DNA of 5,301 nt, from contig JAUWCW010000167.1 of assembly GCA_030609125.1 (NCBI GenBank), forward strand, positions 1 to 5,301, in the 5' to 3' direction. How positions within the stretch are numbered: the stretch's first letter is position 1; every line of letters begins with the position of its first letter. Positions 1 to 5,301 of the stretch are shown piece after piece. The notes beneath the pieces were generated by a model that saw nothing but the letters and a program-made list of their open reading frames with translations, was not told where the DNA came from and searched no databases. Made by a program: the position numbers and the translations under genes. The DNA is from JAUWCW01 sp030609125 [NCBI: Candidatus Rokuibacteriota bacterium] (GTDB lineage: Bacteria > JAUVQV01).

Positions 1-257
1 GGGACTTTGACAGGGTAGTGGTTGATGACAAGCTCGAAGATATGACGGGCCTGGAGTTCGCGCAAAGGATGGTGAGGGTCAATCCCCTGGTCAACCTGGC
101 CGCCGTGAGCAGTCTGGCCCACGATGAATTTCATGAAGCGACGGAGGGTCTGGGCCTGCTCATGCAGCTGCCGCTGCGGCCGGGTGCAGCGGATGCGGTC
201 CGGCTGGCCAGGCATCTCCGGACAGTGATGAGCCTTGCCTCCGGCGAGAGCGGCTGA
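1..257 (+). CDS. Degenerate response-regulator receiver domain, C-terminal part (partial at 5' end)
   Basis: Only the last part of this gene is in the window; the frame is open from base 3 and ends at TGA 255-257. The visible peptide begins DFDRVVVDDKLEDMTGLEFA, which matches the beta3 strand and phosphorylation loop of a CheY-like receiver. The first Asp of the DD pair (bases 24-26) sits at the phospho-acceptor position, eight residues before the conserved Gly. The usual Pro four residues after the Asp is Glu. A Ser pair after beta4 (108-113) stands where Thr/Ser is expected. The conserved Lys of the KP motif is replaced by Leu (168-170, in QLPLRP). Without that Lys, normal phosphorylation switching may be impaired. 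No output domain follows, so this is either a single-domain regulator or the receiver end of a hybrid kinase or larger protein. The next gene starts six bases downstream, so it probably shares the transcript. Receiver identity is fairly sure; its signalling role is unknown. Confidence 0.7.
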   Translation, partial: DFDRVVVDDKLEDMTGLEFAQRMVRVNPLVNLAAVSSLAHDEFHEATEGLGLLMQLPLRPGAADAVRLARHLRTVMSLASGESG

Positions 258-263
258 AAACGG

Positions 264-1121
264 ATGATTATCACTGTTGCAAGCGGCAAAGGGGGCACGG
301 GAAAGACGACGGTTGCCACCAACCTGGCCTTTTCCCTTGCCGACCATGTTCAGTTTCTGGACTGCGACGTGGAGGAGCCCAACGCCCACCTCTTTCTCAA
401 ACCGGCGCTCGGGGAAAAGCAGAGAGTTTTCACTCCCGTTCCCGTCGTGGACGAGACGGCATGCAGCTACTGTAGAAAGTGTGCCGAAATATGCCGGTTC
501 AGGGCAATCACGGTTCTCGGGAAGAAGGTCCTGACCTTTCCGGAGATGTGCCACAGCTGCGGCGGCTGCATGGAGATCTGTCCGGAGCGGGCCATCACGG
601 AAACGGGCCGTGAGCTCGGCGTGATCGAGGAGGGACGGCGGGATGATATCGGCTTTGTTCACGGACGACTGAGGGTCGGTGAGGCCATGGCGCCCCCTCT
701 GATCCGCAAAGTGCTGTCCCACGTCCTGCCCGGAAAGGTCAATATCATCGATGCGCCGCCGGGCACGTCATGTCCGGTCATCACCGCCATGAGAGGGGCC
801 GACTTTGTCCTCCTGGTGACAGAGCCCACCCCTTTCGGCCTGCACGACCTGAAGCTGGCCGTGGAGACCGTGAAGATCCTGGGCCTTCCCCGCGGTCTGA
901 TCATTAATCGTGCCGGCATAGGGGACGACGGCGTGAAGGAGTATGCCGAGGAGGAGGGCCTGCCGGTCCTTATGGAGATCCCCTTCGAGCGGAGTATCGC
1001 CGAGGCCTGCTCGAGGGGCAGGCTCGTGGTTGAAGCCCTGCCGGGGTGGAAGGAAGAATTTCTGGAATTGTTCCGCCGGATCAGAAAAACAATCGGATGG
1101 AAAGAGGTCGGAGCCCGATGA
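264..1121 (+). CDS. MinD-superfamily P-loop ATPase with inserted 2[4Fe-4S] ferredoxin domain (first of tandem pair)
   Basis: A 285-residue cytoplasmic ATPase of the COG1149 type. The deviant Walker A motif GKGGTGKT is at residues 8-15, with the MinD/Mrp signature Lys9 and the P-loop Lys14. DCD at 33-35 is the switch I-like Asp region. A bacterial ferredoxin domain is inserted at about 60-115: Cys67/70/73/77 and Cys96/99/102/106, enough for two [4Fe-4S] clusters. The first motif lacks the usual Pro after its fourth Cys (Arg78), while the second has it. The ATPase fold resumes with Asp163 and PPGTSCPV (165-172), including Cys170, which the paralogue also has, then a LLVTEP strand. The family is thought to couple nucleotide hydrolysis to electron transfer or Fe-S/metal-cluster handling, but the exact reaction is not established. 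The start at 264 places beta1 and the P-loop at the very N-terminus, as is normal; the ribosome-binding site is weak (GAGAG near 246). Its stop overlaps the start of the next ATPase, implying coupled translation and a heteromeric pair. Confidence 0.93.
   Translation: MIITVASGKGGTGKTTVATNLAFSLADHVQFLDCDVEEPNAHLFLKPALGEKQRVFTPVPVVDETACSYCRKCAEICRFRAITVLGKKVLTFPEMCHSCGGCMEICPERAITETGRELGVIEEGRRDDIGFVHGRLRVGEAMAPPLIRKVLSHVLPGKVNIIDAPPGTSCPVITAMRGADFVLLVTEPTPFGLHDLKLAVETVKILGLPRGLIINRAGIGDDGVKEYAEEEGLPVLMEIPFERSIAEACSRGRLVVEALPGWKEEFLELFRRIRKTIGWKEVGAR
282..298 (+). repeat. 17-bp direct repeat over the P-loop codons, copy 1
   Basis: Bases 282-298 are identical to 1139-1155. Both encode the start of the deviant Walker A motif in the tandem ATPases. 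The identity reflects paralogy plus strong constraint on the P-loop, not a mobile or regulatory repeat. Confidence 0.8.
1118..1121 (+). other. ATGA stop/start overlap between the two ATPase genes
   Basis: The ATG of the second ATPase (1118-1120) shares bases with the TGA of the first (1119-1121). This is the classic arrangement for translational re-initiation and suggests the two paralogues are made in similar amounts. Confidence 0.9.
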
Positions 1122-2020
1122 GAGAACTGGTTGTGGTGAGCGGCAAAGGGGGCACCGGCAAGACAAGTCTGACCGCCGCCTTTGCCTCCCTGGCGCGGAG
1201 CATGGTCCTCTGCGACGCCGACGTGGACGCGGCCGATCTTCACCTGCTCATGGATCCGTCAATACGCCGGCAGGAGGATTTTCAGGGAGGAGGAACGGCC
1301 GTAATAGACCGGGAGCGATGCACCGCCTGCGGTCTTTGCCTTGACCTGTGCCGGTTTGATGCCATCGGAAGCGATTACGGAGTCAATCGTATTGACTGCG
1401 AAGGATGCGGTGTGTGTGTTGATTTCTGCCCGGAAAAGGCCATCGCTTTTCCGGCCAGGACGTGCGGGGAGTGGTTTGCCTCCGAAACCCGCTTCGGTCC
1501 TATGGTCCACGCCAGGCTTGGCATCGCGGAGGAGAATTCCGGCCGCCTGGTCACCCTTGTGAGGCAGGAGGCAAGGAAGATCGCGGAAACGAGAAACCTG
1601 GACCTGATCATTACGGACGGTCCTCCGGGCCTGGGATGTCCTGTTATCGCCTCCATCGGCGGCGCTTCCGCTCTGCTCATCGTCACCGAGCCGTCCGTGT
1701 CGGGTCTGCACGACATGGAACGTGTCGTGCAGTTGGCCGCCCACTTCAAAGTGCCGGGCATGGTATGCGTAAACAAGTTTGACCTGAACCCCGGACAGGC
1801 GGAGGCCATCGAAAGACTCGCGAAAGAGAAGAAGATACAGGTCCTGGGAAGGATCCCTTTCGACCCGGTTATCACTGAGGCGATGGTTGGCGGCAAGACC
1901 GTTTTCGAATATGACGCAGGATCGAGGGCCGGGCGGGCGGTCAGGCGGATCTGGGATCAGATCGCCGCATCACCGGCAATCAGAACCGCCTCCGATGAAT
2001 TCCGGCGCTCGATCCCATGA
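1118..2020 (+). CDS. MinD-superfamily P-loop ATPase with inserted 2[4Fe-4S] ferredoxin domain (second of tandem pair)
   Basis: A 300-residue paralogue of the preceding gene. The frame is open from an ATG at 1046, but the start at 1118 is chosen because it gives the ATGA overlap, has a GAGG site at 1104-1107, and puts the P-loop strand at the N-terminus. Walker A GKGGTGKT is at residues 9-16 (signature Lys10, Lys15) and DAD at 33-35. Ferredoxin Cys ligands are at 68/71/74/78 and 94/97/100/104; again only the second set is followed by Pro. Asp167 and PPGLGCPV (169-176) follow, with Cys174 equivalent to Cys170 of the partner, then a LLIVTEP strand and a VNKFD segment near 220-225. It differs from its neighbour by an extra segment between the ferredoxin domain and the second half of the ATPase fold, and by a roughly 20-residue polar C-terminal tail. 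The two ATPases probably form a heterodimer that passes electrons or metal clusters to the NifX-like proteins encoded next; this is inferred from order and family. Confidence 0.93.
   Translation: MRELVVVSGKGGTGKTSLTAAFASLARSMVLCDADVDAADLHLLMDPSIRRQEDFQGGGTAVIDRERCTACGLCLDLCRFDAIGSDYGVNRIDCEGCGVCVDFCPEKAIAFPARTCGEWFASETRFGPMVHARLGIAEENSGRLVTLVRQEARKIAETRNLDLIITDGPPGLGCPVIASIGGASALLIVTEPSVSGLHDMERVVQLAAHFKVPGMVCVNKFDLNPGQAEAIERLAKEKKIQVLGRIPFDPVITEAMVGGKTVFEYDAGSRAGRAVRRIWDQIAASPAIRTASDEFRRSIP
1139..1155 (+). repeat. 17-bp direct repeat over the P-loop codons, copy 2
   Basis: Second copy of the segment at 282-298, in the same codon phase of the second ATPase gene. After it the two genes diverge at synonymous positions, as expected for an old duplication. 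Confidence 0.8.
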
Positions 2021-2040
2021 AAGCAATGACAACAGCGGGA

Positions 2041-2046
2041 AAGGAG
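2041..2046 (+). promoter_or_regulatory. Ribosome-binding site fixing the start of the first NifX-like gene
   Basis: AAGGAG lies 11 bases before the ATG at 2058. The frame stays open back to 1887, inside the ATPase gene, so this site and the start of family similarity together pick 2058 as the true start. Confidence 0.7.
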
Positions 2047-2057
2047 AGTCACGAATC

Positions 2058-2441
2058 ATGCAAAAAGGAAGAGTAGCGGTCCCCTCTACGGGAGAGGGCG
2101 GACTGGACGGACAGAGATCGGGTCATTTCGGCCACTGTGACGTCTTTACCTTCATCGACGTGGAGGGCGGGGAGATCAGAGAGGTCTCGACGATTCGGAA
2201 CGGGGGACATGTCCAGGGCGGGTGCATGGTGCCCGTCAACCTTCTGGCCGAGCACAACGTGAACGCCCTGATCGTGGGGGGCATCGGTATGAGGCCCCTC
2301 ATGGGGTTCAGGCAGGCCGGCATCGACGTGTATCATGACGCGGAAAGAGGTAACATAAGACCGGTGGTGGAAGACTTGATCGCGGACAGATTGCCCATGA
2401 TCGACGACAGCCAGGTGTGCGGCGGCGGGGGGAAGGGGTAA
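2058..2441 (+). CDS. NifX/NifB-C-terminal-like (dinitrogenase Fe-Mo cofactor family) protein, His/Cys-rich subtype
   Basis: A 127-residue single-domain cytoplasmic protein of the family usually named dinitrogenase iron-molybdenum cofactor biosynthesis protein, which has an RNase H-like fold that binds metal-sulfur clusters or their precursors. Visible hallmarks are an N-terminal beta strand GRVAVPS, a G-x-HFG-x-C motif with His23, His26 and Cys27, then HVQGGC (His51, Cys56), then a helix and the strand ALIVGGIGMRPL, and a FRQAGIDVY strand. The chain ends in a short Cys-Gly-rich tail (Cys121, then four Gly). The His and Cys residues are plausible metal ligands. It sits between the ferredoxin-ATPase pair and a second NifX-like gene, with only three bases to the latter. 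There are no nif structural genes here, so a role in nitrogenase maturation is not supported. A cluster carrier working with the ATPases, as in Orp systems, is more likely. Family assignment is firm, ligand and function are inferred. Confidence 0.88.
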   Translation: MQKGRVAVPSTGEGGLDGQRSGHFGHCDVFTFIDVEGGEIREVSTIRNGGHVQGGCMVPVNLLAEHNVNALIVGGIGMRPLMGFRQAGIDVYHDAERGNIRPVVEDLIADRLPMIDDSQVCGGGGKG

Positions 2442-2444
2442 GCG

Positions 2445-2804
2445 ATGAAAATAGCAGTCACGTCCAGGGGTACGGACCTTGATGCGGCGGTTGATCCACG
2501 CTTCGGACGTGCCGCCTACATACTGATAATCGATTCGGACACCCGCGCTTTCGAGGTTCTGGACAACCAGGAGAACGTCGATGCCTTCCAGGGCGCCGGC
2601 ATTCAGGCCGCCGTCATGATAAGCGACAAGGGAGCGGATGTCCTCCTCACCGGCTACTGCGGTCCCAAGGCCTTTGAGACGCTCCAGGCGGCCGGGATAA
2701 AGGTGGTCAATGACGCCGTCGGCACGGTGGACGCCGTCGTGAGGGATTTCAAGGACGGGAAGTTCTCTATTGCGCAGAGCGCCAATGTCGAGGGACACTG
2801 GTAA
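2445..2804 (+). CDS. NifX/NifB-C-terminal-like protein, canonical RFGR subtype
   Basis: A 119-residue protein of the same family as its upstream neighbour but nearer to the archaeal/anaerobe standard form. It has KIAVTS at the N-terminus, VDPRFGR (residues 16-22), a Gln-Gly-Ala-Gly-Ile-Gln segment (49-54) starting the central helix, LLTGYCGPKAF (67-77) with the only Cys (Cys72), and AGIKVV. It lacks the HFGHC and terminal Cys motifs of its neighbour, so the two are not interchangeable copies. Orange protein (ORP) of Desulfovibrio, which holds a Mo-Cu-S cluster, belongs to this family, but binding in this protein cannot be read from sequence. The start at 2445 has GGAAGGGG (2431-2438) six bases upstream, overlapping the previous gene's stop. 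It probably forms a homodimer or a heterodimer with the upstream protein and exchanges a cluster with the ferredoxin ATPases; this is inference. Confidence 0.9.
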   Translation: MKIAVTSRGTDLDAAVDPRFGRAAYILIIDSDTRAFEVLDNQENVDAFQGAGIQAAVMISDKGADVLLTGYCGPKAFETLQAAGIKVVNDAVGTVDAVVRDFKDGKFSIAQSANVEGHW

Positions 2805-2835: not shown

Positions 2836-3033
2836 ATGGCCGCAAAGAGAACGTTCAAGTGCGACGCCTGCAGACATGAGTGGGAAGAGCCTTTCGGAAC
2901 AGGAAGGCCTCAACAGTGTCCCGAATGCGGCGGCACGGATTTCCACCGAAGCGACGATAACGCGGGATCCGGCAGAGGTCAGGGTGGGGAGCGCTGCCGG
3001 CACCGGGGAGGAGAAAGCCATGAGTCTGGTTGA
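2836..3033 (+). CDS. Small zinc-ribbon protein with Gly/Arg/His-rich tail
   Basis: A 65-residue protein. The N-terminal half is a two-knuckle zinc ribbon: Cys9-x2-Cys12 and Cys28-x2-Cys31 with a 15-residue spacer that includes EW and a FGTGRPQQ turn, then CPECGGTDF. This pattern binds one Zn (or an Fe in rubredoxin-like fashion). The C-terminal half (about 39-65) is low-complexity, rich in Gly, Arg, His and Ser with one further Cys, and probably disordered. Small zinc-ribbon proteins of this kind are, as I recall, often encoded beside NifX-like genes in anaerobes; no specific activity is known to me. The gene starts 31 bases after the second NifX-like gene and its last 14 bases overlap the start of the ABC ATPase gene. 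Its stop codon lies 11 bases inside that gene, so ribosomes finishing it could re-initiate there. It could be an adaptor or a metal chaperone; the sequence does not decide. Confidence 0.8.
   Translation: MAAKRTFKCDACRHEWEEPFGTGRPQQCPECGGTDFHRSDDNAGSGRGQGGERCRHRGGESHESG
3005..3013 (+). promoter_or_regulatory. Ribosome-binding site for the ABC ATPase gene, inside the zinc-ribbon gene
   Basis: GGGGAGGAG ends six bases before the ATG at 3020. It supports 3020 over the more upstream in-frame ATG at 2876, which would add 48 residues unlike any ABC ATPase. Confidence 0.75.
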
Positions 3034-3721
3034 GTCAAAAGACCTCACCAAGACCTACCAGGCTGGTGAAGTGGAGGTGAAAGCCCTCAAGGGCATCAGC
3101 TTTGCGATCGAGCCGGCGAGCTTCGTTTCATTCGTCGGCCCGTCGGGAAGCGGCAAGACAACGCTCCTCAACCTGGTCGGCTGCCTCGACAAGCCGACCT
3201 CCGGGCAGCTGCGTGTTGTCGGTACCGATGTCGCAACTCTGGGCCGTGCCGAAGGCGCGACCTTTCGCGGCAGGAACATCGGTTTCGTCTTCCAGGACTT
3301 CAACCTCATCCCCGTCCTCACGGTCTTTGAAAACATCGAGTACCCTCTGCTCATGGTCGAGTGCTGTGGCGCCAGGGAGCGCCGGGAGAGGGTCGAGACC
3401 CTCCTTGAAGCGGTGGGCATGGCCGACCAGAAAAAGAAGTTTCCCTCCCAGATCTCCGGAGGGCAGAAACAGCGGGTGGCGGTGGCGCGGGCCCTGGTGG
3501 CCGACCCCAAGCTTGTCCTCGCCGACGAGCCGACGGCCAACCTCGACCACGAGACGGCCTTCATGGTGATCAATCTCATGAAATCCCTCAAAAAAGAGAG
3601 GAAGACGACCTTTGTCTTTTCCACTCACGATCCCAAGATCGTCGGTGAGGCGGAGATCGTATACACCCTCGAAGACGGTCTTGTCACCAACCTCGAGGAC
3701 AGGAGGGCGGGACATGCTTAA
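3020..3721 (+). CDS. ABC transporter ATP-binding protein, LolD/MacB-type
   Basis: A complete 233-residue ATPase subunit of the type that partners FtsX-like permeases. In order: a Tyr13 A-loop, Walker A GPSGSGKT (40-47), Q-loop Gln92 in FQDFNLIP, signature ISGGQ (145-149), Walker B LVLADE (165-170), D-loop NLD (174-176) and switch His203 in STHD. The segment FNLIPVLTVFENIEYPL is typical of the LolD/MacB/FtsE group, whose members drive mechanotransmission: they move or extract periplasm-facing substrates without passing them through a membrane channel. All catalytic residues are present. The gene overlaps the zinc-ribbon gene upstream (14 bases) and its permease downstream (8 bases), so the three should be made together. 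Cargo cannot be read from the ATPase; the LolA-like gene downstream suggests lipoprotein or lipid. It is too general a family member to be called lolD with confidence. Confidence 0.95.
   Translation: MSLVESKDLTKTYQAGEVEVKALKGISFAIEPASFVSFVGPSGSGKTTLLNLVGCLDKPTSGQLRVVGTDVATLGRAEGATFRGRNIGFVFQDFNLIPVLTVFENIEYPLLMVECCGARERRERVETLLEAVGMADQKKKFPSQISGGQKQRVAVARALVADPKLVLADEPTANLDHETAFMVINLMKSLKKERKTTFVFSTHDPKIVGEAEIVYTLEDGLVTNLEDRRAGHA
3701..3706 (+). promoter_or_regulatory. Ribosome-binding site for the permease gene
   Basis: A perfect AGGAGG seven bases before ATG 3714, inside the 3' end of the ABC ATPase gene. It fixes the permease start at 3714; the frame is also open upstream to 3612 but that part is antiparallel to no known domain and overlaps the ATPase gene. 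Confidence 0.8.
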
Positions 3722-4961
3722 TATCGTGAAGATCGCCCTGCGGAACCTCCTCCGCTACAAACGGCGCACGCTGCTCACCTCCCTGCTGATCACTATCGGC
3801 GTCCTGGCCGTCCTGCTTTTCTCATCCATCACCGGCGCCTTCAAGTCCCTGATGGTCGGCCAGATCACCGACTCCATGCTCGGCCACCTGCAGGTGCACA
3901 AACGCGGCTACGTCGCTTCCATCGACAACCTCCCCCTGCACATGAATCTGCGCCCCAAGGAGATGGAGACGATCGAAAAGGTTCTGGACGCCCTGCCGGA
4001 AGTGGAGGCTTACTCCCCGCGCATCAAGTTCGGGGGGATGTTCAGCAACTTCGAGGAGACGACGAACATTCGCCTTAACGGCGTCGATCCGGAGCAGGAG
4101 ATACTCACGGCGCCCCTCCTGCCAAAGCGCATGCTTCAGGGCGCGGCGGGGGACGCTCTTCTCAGACCGGGGGAAATTCTCGTGCCGGAACTGCTGGCGA
4201 GGGGCATGAAAGTCAAACTCGGAGATACGGTGGTGATCGTGGCCACCAACCGGGACGGCTCGGTCAACGCCCAGACCCTTACCGTCCGCGGTGTCCTGGA
4301 GGGGATCTCCGGACCCGGCGGGCGGGACGGCTACATTCACATCAAGGATGCCAGGACACTCCTTCGTATCGAAAAGAAAGAAGCCAACGAGTACGCCGTC
4401 CGCCTGAAAAAGGCTGACGATCTCGACAAGGTGCACGCGGAACTGTCGGCGGCATTCGCCGGGGAATTGAACAAGGAGGGAAAACCAAAGTACGAGATCC
4501 ACACTTGGGAGAAACTCTCTCCCTTTTACAACATTGCCCGGATGATCGACGTCATGACCTTCTTCATCAAGGTGATGCTCATCGCCATCGTTCTGGTCAG
4601 CGTGATGAACGTCATGATCATGGCCGTTTTCGAGCGTATGAAGGAAATCGGGACCATCGCCGCCATCGGGACCCGGCCCGGGAAGATCCTCGCCCTTTTT
4701 CTGGTTGAAGGTCTCAGCCTCGGCATTCTTGGATCGGCCGCCGGGACCCTGTTCTCCCTGGCGGCGATTTTCGCCCTCAAGGTAAATCCCCTCAGCTTCG
4801 ACTTCGGCCGCCAGAAGGGGCTCGTGCTGTCGCCGACGCTGGACGTCAATGAGATAATGATTGCATCTGTACTTGTTGTTCTCGTGTCGGCGCTGGCCAG
4901 CCTGCAGCCGGCTTTCAAGGCCTCACGGATGGAACCGGTAACCGCCATGCGGCAGGTGTGA
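3714..4961 (+). CDS. FtsX-like ABC transporter permease (MacB/LolC-E type)
   Basis: A 415-residue inner-membrane permease with the MacB-like plan. There is a short basic N-terminus (RNLLRYKRR, residues 10-18), then TM1 at about 20-42. A large periplasmic domain follows (about 45-275), with the MacB-PCD style alternation of strands and a GVDPEQE segment. TM2 is at about 283-305, then the cytoplasmic coupling stretch ERMKEIGTIAAIGTRPGKI (307-325) that contacts the ATPase. TM3 is at about 327-355 and TM4 at about 381-403, ending in the usual cytoplasmic tail with EPVTAMR. Only one permease gene is seen, so the transporter is probably a homodimer as in MacB, unless a second permease lies downstream of the window. 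It starts inside the end of the ATPase gene. With a LolA-like protein encoded immediately downstream, extraction of a lipoprotein or other lipophilic molecule from the outer leaflet of the inner membrane is the most likely job; macrolide or peptide export is the alternative. Confidence 0.93.
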   Translation: MLNIVKIALRNLLRYKRRTLLTSLLITIGVLAVLLFSSITGAFKSLMVGQITDSMLGHLQVHKRGYVASIDNLPLHMNLRPKEMETIEKVLDALPEVEAYSPRIKFGGMFSNFEETTNIRLNGVDPEQEILTAPLLPKRMLQGAAGDALLRPGEILVPELLARGMKVKLGDTVVIVATNRDGSVNAQTLTVRGVLEGISGPGGRDGYIHIKDARTLLRIEKKEANEYAVRLKKADDLDKVHAELSAAFAGELNKEGKPKYEIHTWEKLSPFYNIARMIDVMTFFIKVMLIAIVLVSVMNVMIMAVFERMKEIGTIAAIGTRPGKILALFLVEGLSLGILGSAAGTLFSLAAIFALKVNPLSFDFGRQKGLVLSPTLDVNEIMIASVLVVLVSALASLQPAFKASRMEPVTAMRQV

Positions 4962-4963
4962 CG

Positions 4964-4970
4964 GGAAGGA
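4964..4970 (+). promoter_or_regulatory. Ribosome-binding site that helps choose the start of the LolA-like gene
   Basis: GGAAGGA lies 11 bases before ATG 4982 but touches the alternative ATG at 4970, leaving it no spacing. This favours 4982. A weaker AGGTG at 4954-4958 could still serve 4970. Confidence 0.5.
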
Positions 4971-4981
4971 TGACCAGGAAA

Positions 4982-5301
4982 ATGAAGAAACTGCTCGCTG
5001 CGATAACGATCTCGGCACTGTTTTTCGGAACAGCATCTCCGGCCTGCGCTCTTGACGGGGAGAAGATCCTCCGGCAGGTGGACCGCAACCTCAACCCCGA
5101 ATCGTATGAAATGTACCGCAAGCTCATCAACATCCAGCCCGACGGAAGCAGGAAGGAGTACGTGCTCTACACCATCAAGAAGGGCCAGGATCGAATGGTG
5201 GCCCTCTTTCTTTCCCCTGCGAGCGAGAAGGGGAGGAGCACGCTCCGCCTCGAGGACAACATGTGGCTCTACATGCCGAACGTCGGCAGGCCCATCCGCA
5301 T
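4982..5301 (+). CDS. Secreted LolA-like outer membrane lipoprotein-sorting protein (partial at 3' end)
   Basis: The first 106 codons of a gene cut by the window end. It begins MKKLLAAITISALFFG, a clear signal peptide: basic start, hydrophobic core, and an Ala-Cys-Ala motif at residues 21-23 suggesting signal peptidase I cleavage before Leu24. Cys22 is preceded by Ser-Pro-Ala, not a good lipobox, so a lipoprotein is less likely. The mature part shows the pattern of the COG2834/LolA-like family (proteins often named outer membrane lipoprotein-sorting protein): an early helix EKILRQVDRNLNP, then successive beta strands (YEMYRKLINI, KEYVLYTIKKG, MVALFLSP, STLRLEDNMWLYMP) and NVGRPIRI. The MWLYMP...RI segment is a recurrent mark of that family. 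Such proteins form a half-barrel that carries an acyl chain or lipid through the periplasm. It follows the permease stop by 20 bases, so it is likely the periplasmic partner of the ABC transporter. An alternative start at 4970 adds four residues (MTRK). Confidence 0.8.
   Translation, partial: MKKLLAAITISALFFGTASPACALDGEKILRQVDRNLNPESYEMYRKLINIQPDGSRKEYVLYTIKKGQDRMVALFLSPASEKGRSTLRLEDNMWLYMPNVGRPIR

Follow-up and report, generated by a model that had tools for sequence, protein, structure and literature searches.

The 5,301-nucleotide stretch of DNA examined here, which we call the window, is the whole of contig C366 from metagenome bin G000 (376 contigs, 92% complete). It almost certainly carries a gene cluster for the orange protein (Orp) complex, in the arrangement seen in Desulfovibrio gigas. 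We regard it as a version of the known orange-protein gene set of anaerobes and not as a new system. The cluster consists of the 3′ end of a gene for a degenerate receiver domain (REC), two paralogous ATPases with ferredoxin inserts (A1 and A2), a stand-alone protein of the PF02579 family (NX1), and an orange-protein homolog (ORP). All genes lie on the + strand in the order REC, A1, A2, NX1, ORP, and are followed by a small zinc-ribbon gene and a run of ATP-binding cassette (ABC) transporter genes (Table 1). REC and A1 are separated by 6 bases, A1 and A2 overlap by 4 bases, and the A2–NX1 and NX1–ORP gaps are 37 and 3 bases. The Pfam domains of A1, A2, NX1, and ORP all score over their curated cut-offs. 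Assignment to the D. gigas type, when joined with the ATP-driven mechanism proposed below, yields an overall explanation that we favor with moderate confidence.

Table 1. Features of the 5,301-base window
Feature	Positions	Strand	Description
REC 3′ end	3–257	+	Degenerate receiver-domain gene, 84 amino acids, cut by contig start
A1	264–1121	+	285 amino acids; ferredoxin-inserted MinD-fold ATPase (Orp3/Orp4 type); Pfam ParA, CbiA, Fer4
A1 eight-Cys ferredoxin segment	462–581	+	C67–C106
A1 ninth invariant Cys	771–773	+	C170, in DAPPGTSC
A2	1118–2020	+	300 amino acids; paralogous ferredoxin-inserted MinD-fold ATPase; Pfam ParA, CbiA, Fer4
A2 eight-Cys ferredoxin segment	1319–1429	+	C68–C104
A2 ninth invariant Cys	1637–1639	+	C174, in DGPPGLGC
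NX1	2058–2441	+	127 amino acids; stand-alone PF02579 (Di-Nase), E 8.4e-21; invariant C27, C56, C121
ORP	2445–2804	+	119 amino acids; orange-protein (Orp8) homolog; PF02579 E 2.3e-23
Small zinc-ribbon gene	2836–3033	+	FmdB type, score below cut-off; directly 3′ of ORP
LolD-like ATPase	3020–3721	+	First gene of ABC-transporter run
LolC/FtsX-like permease	3714–4961	+	ABC-transporter run
LolA-like gene	4970–5299	+	ABC-transporter run; cut by contig end

The A1, A2, NX1, and ORP proteins correspond one-to-one with those of the D. gigas orp locus (L187), which we located in genome G163, taken as that of D. gigas from a 113/113-residue match to PDB entry 2wfb. This entry is the apo-ORP of D. gigas (PMC3069746, in excerpt), and the window ORP matches it with an E value of 4.5e-28. 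Identities to the D. gigas orthologs are 50% for A1, 52% for A2, 48% for NX1, and 52% for ORP, compared to 28–32% for the wrong paralogs. A FastTree tree built jointly from 86 A1 and 82 A2 rows, each of at least 200 amino acids, separates the two ATPases into distinct groups (support at the midpoint root is 1.0 for A2 and just 0.30 for A1). The window copies fall in mostly deltaproteobacterial clades that also contain their D. gigas counterparts (local support 0.912 for A1 and 0.906 for A2). NX1 and ORP were placed through profile score and BLAST rather than by a tree.

The ORP, A1, A2, NX1, and REC families lie close together in D. gigas, as they do in the window. The order there is ORP-A1-A2-NX1-(another gene)-REC, whereas the window reads REC-A1-A2-NX1-ORP. 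The two loci also differ in that the D. gigas ORP domain shares one open frame with DUF134, and its REC domain shares one with NifU_N. Among four further loci from the D. gigas order, fetched for their high ORP similarity (L188–L191), ORP-A1-A2-NX1-REC stand in a row in L188 and L189, all five families are present in L190, and REC is missing from L191. The shared ORP frame, with DUF134 upstream, is seen at 7386–8135 of L187 and again at 7422–8438 of L188, which suggests that some orange proteins may also bind DNA.

The first-pass annotation of this DNA had described an Orp-like module at positions 264 to 2804, with D. vulgaris as its model. Its coordinates, gaps, and overlap, its eight ferredoxin cysteines per ATPase, and its two PF02579 proteins are exact by open frames, Pfam, and conservation, and the joint tree agrees with the placement of both ATPases inside Orp-associated clades. 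However, the module begins earlier than was proposed, with the end of REC, and D. gigas is a nearer model than D. vulgaris. The gene-order comparison that it recommended places the window with the D. gigas-type gene set and not with the order of D. vulgaris-type loci that carry MrpORP.

Our knowledge of D. vulgaris Hildenborough comes from descriptions rather than sequences, in excerpts of PMC6345978. According to these, its complex consists of Orp3, Orp4, Orp5, Orp8, and Orp9, of which Orp3, Orp4, and Orp8 co-purify; in vitro, MrpORP transfers Fe-S clusters to them. The complex resembles the window in having an Orp8-type protein and two ATPases, each with two ferredoxin motifs. In contrast, the D. 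vulgaris genes include MrpORP (Orp9) and are split between two divergent operons, whereas the window has a single gene run and no MrpORP. Three of four loci picked for a fused MrpORP (L205, L207, and L208) carry a sigma-54 activator, a weak PF02579 protein, ORP, and MrpORP, an order that fits DVU2106 to DVU2109 of D. vulgaris. No close NX1 or REC was found in the examined stretch of the four fused-MrpORP loci. Because the window contig lacks MrpORP, and because NX1 and REC recur in D. gigas-type clusters and not in the examined stretch of these four loci, we group the window with the D. gigas arrangement. No gene on the window contig is assigned to Orp5, although the Orp5 description used is incomplete.

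MrpORP is absent over cut-off not only from the window contig but from all of bin G000. The best match in D. gigas itself scores 382.7 bits, below the cut-off of 450, and lies ~258 kb from ORP, and MrpORP exceeds the cut-off in 44 of 199 genomes of the D. gigas order. By these sequence matches MrpORP is a variable component, and we do not take it as defining orp clusters.

A profile search of the genome collection with A1 returned at least 320 relatives, and the counts that follow use the best 80 loci. All but two of these (78) come from metagenome-assembled genomes, with labels that include Desulfobacterales, Chloroflexota, Omnitrophota, Planctomycetota, and Bathyarchaeota. We call a gene "near A1" if its start is <6 kb from the A1 start; by this definition, 77 of the 80 loci have a same-strand A2 near A1, and in 68 of those 77 it starts <300 bases from the A1 end. 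ORP is near A1 in 69 loci, and any PF02579-type protein in 76. Because the A1-A2-PF02579 grouping recurs across these loci, it is beyond chance. Other neighbors include Mrp (28/80), the NifU_N scaffold (17/80), radical SAM (13/80), a sigma-54 activator (13/80), NX1 of the window's close type (10/80), and REC (7/80). Because contig ends truncate several loci, these counts are lower bounds. By eye, no locus has both a close NX1 and a fused MrpORP, but mutual exclusion of the two was dropped as a claim because the fusion occurs in merely 4 of the 80.

Each ATPase carries two CxxCxxCxxxC sets, and the resulting eight ferredoxin cysteines are kept at 99–100% across the 86 A1 and 82 A2 rows. In the family alignments, Walker A with its signature lysine is invariant in both families, as are all ferredoxin cysteines but A2 C71 (≥90%). 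The alignments labeled A3, A4, and A5 contain 58, 54, and 18 rows, picked from 72, 66, and 20 that passed the filter; the remainder were dropped for list length or short loci. A ninth cysteine is also invariant: C170 in 86/86 A1 rows, and C174 in all 81 of the 82 A2 rows that have a residue at that position. In profile alignments, both fall on the second invariant cysteine of NifH, located in switch II (C130 of the alignment). We take this residue to be NifH Cys132, which helps to ligate the [4Fe-4S] cluster that bridges the dimer. Our limited literature search, which did not extend to the 2011 operon paper, found no mention of the ninth cysteine in the orp ATPases, and a query of COG1149 with NifH or cysteine gave no COG1149 paper among the matches listed.

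Two groups of related ATPases are informative for comparison. A1 and A2 share with NifH/BchL the fold (Z 20.4–23.5 in the rows listed), Walker A, and the one cysteine at the profile-aligned switch-II position. They differ by keeping only one of the two NifH cysteines, by carrying the two-cluster ferredoxin insert, and by forming a paralogous pair, whereas NifH is a homodimer. Mrp/ApbC/NBP35 proteins resemble A1 in that its profile matches Mrp more closely than NifH and ApbC is its top fold match. However, Mrp has aspartate in place of the ninth cysteine (18/18 rows, at the ninth-cysteine distance from the Walker-B Asp), and the Mrp sequences seen have no eight-Cys ferredoxin insert.

Single-chain AlphaFold2 models of A1 and A2 have predicted local distance difference test scores of 95.9 and 95.1, respectively. 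The A2 model matches three folds almost equally: MinD (1g3q, Z 24.5, 218 residues aligned, 2.7 Å), ApbC (8zkc, 24.2), and the V-nitrogenase Fe protein (6q93, 23.5, 227 aligned, 3.1 Å). For A1 the matches are ApbC 8zkc (Z 24.1), MinD (23.1), ATPase-type HypB (22.6), DPOR L protein (22.5), and nitrogenase Fe protein (21.4). In these models, fold by itself gives no choice among positioning, cluster carriage, and electron transfer.

The two small proteins were labeled NifX-like in the first-pass annotation, a description that holds at the level of the PF02579 superfamily but not for NifX proper. NCBIfam at an E value of 1e-3 gives only MrpORP for NX1 and ORP, below cut-off, and no NifX model matches either protein. 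For NX1, the match (51.7 bits) covers the Di-Nase half of MrpORP, which in D. vulgaris and D. alaskensis binds a cluster taken by the authors as [3Fe-4S] (PMC6345978, in excerpt). The close NX1 family, with D. gigas included, retains HFGHC, GGC, and a C-terminal cysteine in 16/16 rows. NX1 has a short C-terminal tail, CGGGGKG, and the window ORP has no Gly-rich tail. D. gigas ORP itself carries a Mo-Cu-S cluster, and six residues of the window ORP (F20, R22, N41, G50, G73, and P74) are present in 82/82 ORP-type rows. Excerpts of PMC6345978 state that ORP-type proteins bind a non-covalent Mo-Cu sulfide and that Orp8 is homologous to such proteins.

The window REC fragment has no Pfam match by itself, but it is of the same family as genes in loci L034 and L035 that pass the Response_reg cut-off. 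Four further relatives fall just below this cut-off (L041) or have no Pfam match (L187 of D. gigas, L188, and L190). The family shares the motif FHExxEGxG..LP. Residues were scored by eye against the general receiver pattern, with no canonical receiver in the alignment; on this basis, the acidic pair is found in 0 of the 11 rows that reach it, the lysine in 0/12, and the aspartate in 10/12. The window fragment has the aspartate, lacks the lysine, and is too short to cover the acidic pair. The REC protein is thus probably not phosphorylatable in the usual way. Of the 7 loci among the 80 that carry REC, 6 have a sigma-54 activator <6 kb from A1, and the window contig begins inside REC. In D. gigas, one open reading frame (10747–11685 of L187) joins NifU_N, an Fe-S scaffold domain, to the degenerate receiver. 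The words "receiver" and "response regulator" are absent from PMC6345978, and excerpts of PMC3897727 and PMC4641369 mention no receiver. The literature searched therefore gives no mention of a receiver as an orp component, but the 2011 operon paper was outside this search and the association may be known.

In the mechanism that we favor, A1 and A2 would pair as a heterodimeric deviant-Walker ATPase in which ATP binding would join the two switch-II cysteines and the two ferredoxin inserts at the dimer face. Hydrolysis would then gate delivery to the small PF02579 carriers, either of low-potential electrons or of a cluster. The Cys/His set of NX1 would bind an Fe-S cluster, ORP would house the non-covalent Mo-Cu-S cluster known from proteins of its type, and the REC protein would serve as an adaptor or regulator. 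The recurrence of Mrp and NifU_N near A1 fits metal-cluster work. We offer this ATP-driven mechanism, suggested by sequences and models, tentatively and at somewhat less than an even chance.

Several points weigh against the proposal. The match of the ninth cysteine to NifH comes from profile alignments of just 19% and 26% identity, and the A1–Mrp alignment gaps exactly at this residue. NifH has two invariant cysteines (C93 and C130 of the alignment), both of which act as ligands, and only one has a counterpart in A1 and A2; the ferredoxin insert appears to occupy the segment that holds the other. By fold, MinD fits as well as NifH does. The A1 profile is nearer to Mrp (hhalign E 6.2e-24) than to NifH (E 4.8e-8), and this affinity for Mrp/ApbC in profile and fold favors cluster carriage over NifH-style reduction. 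The sole cysteine of the window ORP sits where D. gigas ORP has valine, and Mo/Cu binding by the window ORP is assumed. A more specific proposal would make A1–A2 an ATP-gated reductase that works like the nitrogenase Fe protein but is an obligate heterodimer, with two switch-II cysteines, one from each subunit, and two inserted ferredoxins in place of the single bridging cluster. This reductase would be regulated by a non-phosphorylatable receiver subunit and would build or reduce the Mo-Cu-S cluster of ORP. We consider this version unlikely.

Alternatively, A1 and A2 might be a MinD-like positioning machine that cycles on the membrane or pole to place the septum or other cargo, with clusters that merely sense redox. 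MinD is the top fold match of A2 and among the best of A1, and excerpts of PMC6345978 place MrpORP at the pole in D. vulgaris and state that Orp3 and Orp4 carry a C-terminal amphipathic helix. The hydrophobic moment of the A2 C-terminal stretch, which only 0.5% of shuffles reach, is suggestive of a MinD-like membrane helix; that of A1 is ordinary (13% of shuffles) and gives no such indication. However, the scores of both proteins against the MinD model TIGR01969 (62.6 bits for A1 and 72.4 for A2) are far below the cut-off of 201.75, and MinD membership was rejected. Moreover, several of the recurrent neighbors are metal-cluster genes, and the cell-division role is termed a hypothesis by its own authors. 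We find this role improbable.

A similarly low probability attaches to metal-sulfide storage or detoxification, in which NX1 and ORP would serve as scaffolds for Fe-S, Mo-S, or Cu-S anions, comparable to IssA and its thioferrate, with the ATPases loading or unloading them. IssA shares the NifB/NifX-type domain family (PMC5524996, in excerpt), and both the non-covalent Mo-Cu sulfide of ORP-type proteins and the short Gly-rich tail of NX1 are in keeping with such a role. But the window ORP has no such tail, the three invariant cysteines and His motifs of NX1 look more like a discrete cluster site, and two ATPases with eight ferredoxin cysteines each are left unexplained.

A nitrogenase-associated or FeMo-co assembly module is very improbable: although PF02579 is common to NifX and NifB (PMC5524996, in excerpt) and A2 gives a weak NifH-like signal (21.5 bits), neither NX1 nor ORP matches a NifX model and no nifH exceeds the cut-off anywhere in bin G000, where nifD, nifK, nifB, and other nif genes were not searched. 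The first-pass claim that nif genes are missing thus stands as to nifH. When 50 of the 80 relatives' genomes were queried, a NifH-type match at E 1e-60 was present in 12 and exceeded the cut-off in 5, in each of these 5 on another contig than the orp module. Relatives therefore do not always sit beside nitrogenase genes, and a nitrogenase link was rejected on nifH.

The contig may be mis-binned or transferred. A search for rpoB succeeded in 27 of 30 genomes, and the rpoB tree holds 17 rows, with two long rows (L057 and L048) left out. The rpoB of the bin is 72.5% identical to that of its order-mate G001, with which it forms a deep separate branch, and 53.7–57.7% identical to 15 other rows. In contrast, the window A1 shares 68% identity with its counterparts in L032 and L033, two loci from Desulfobacterota, and the ABC permease shares 63–64% with those of two genomes, of 20 searched, that group with Desulfobulbaceae. 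G001 has only distant matches to the window A1 and permease. Because the genes of the contig are nearest to Desulfobacterota, unlike the rpoB of the bin, the contig appears foreign to it. The G+C fraction of the window is 0.600, compared to 0.605–0.707 in 19 readable stretches of the bin. In a regression of A1 identity on rpoB identity, the window pairs with L032 and L033 lie ~2.2 standard deviations (SD) high; the fit is weak (slope 0.24, SD 6.3, 136 pairs), and we take this sign of mis-binning as suggestive only. The identity of the genes is unaffected by mis-binning or transfer.

Some genes outside the module also have counterparts among the relatives. A cluster of FmdB-like zinc-ribbon genes is represented near A1 in 10/80 loci, and a permease and LolA-like pair similar to that of the window is present in L033, ~8 kb from its orp module on the opposite strand. 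In L035, two DUF364 "putative heavy-metal chelation" genes (13025–14474) follow the module and REC, and DUF364 is near A1 in 7/80 loci.

The window locus is ordinary in kind, and its value comes from comparison with its 80 relatives. The ORP complex occurs widely across lineages rich in anaerobes, and the comparison yields two testable leads: a ninth invariant cysteine in both ATPases, aligned with the switch-II cysteine of NifH, and a degenerate receiver found repeatedly in clusters of the D. gigas type. Together, these features point to ATP-gated redox or cluster chemistry rather than to cell division alone.

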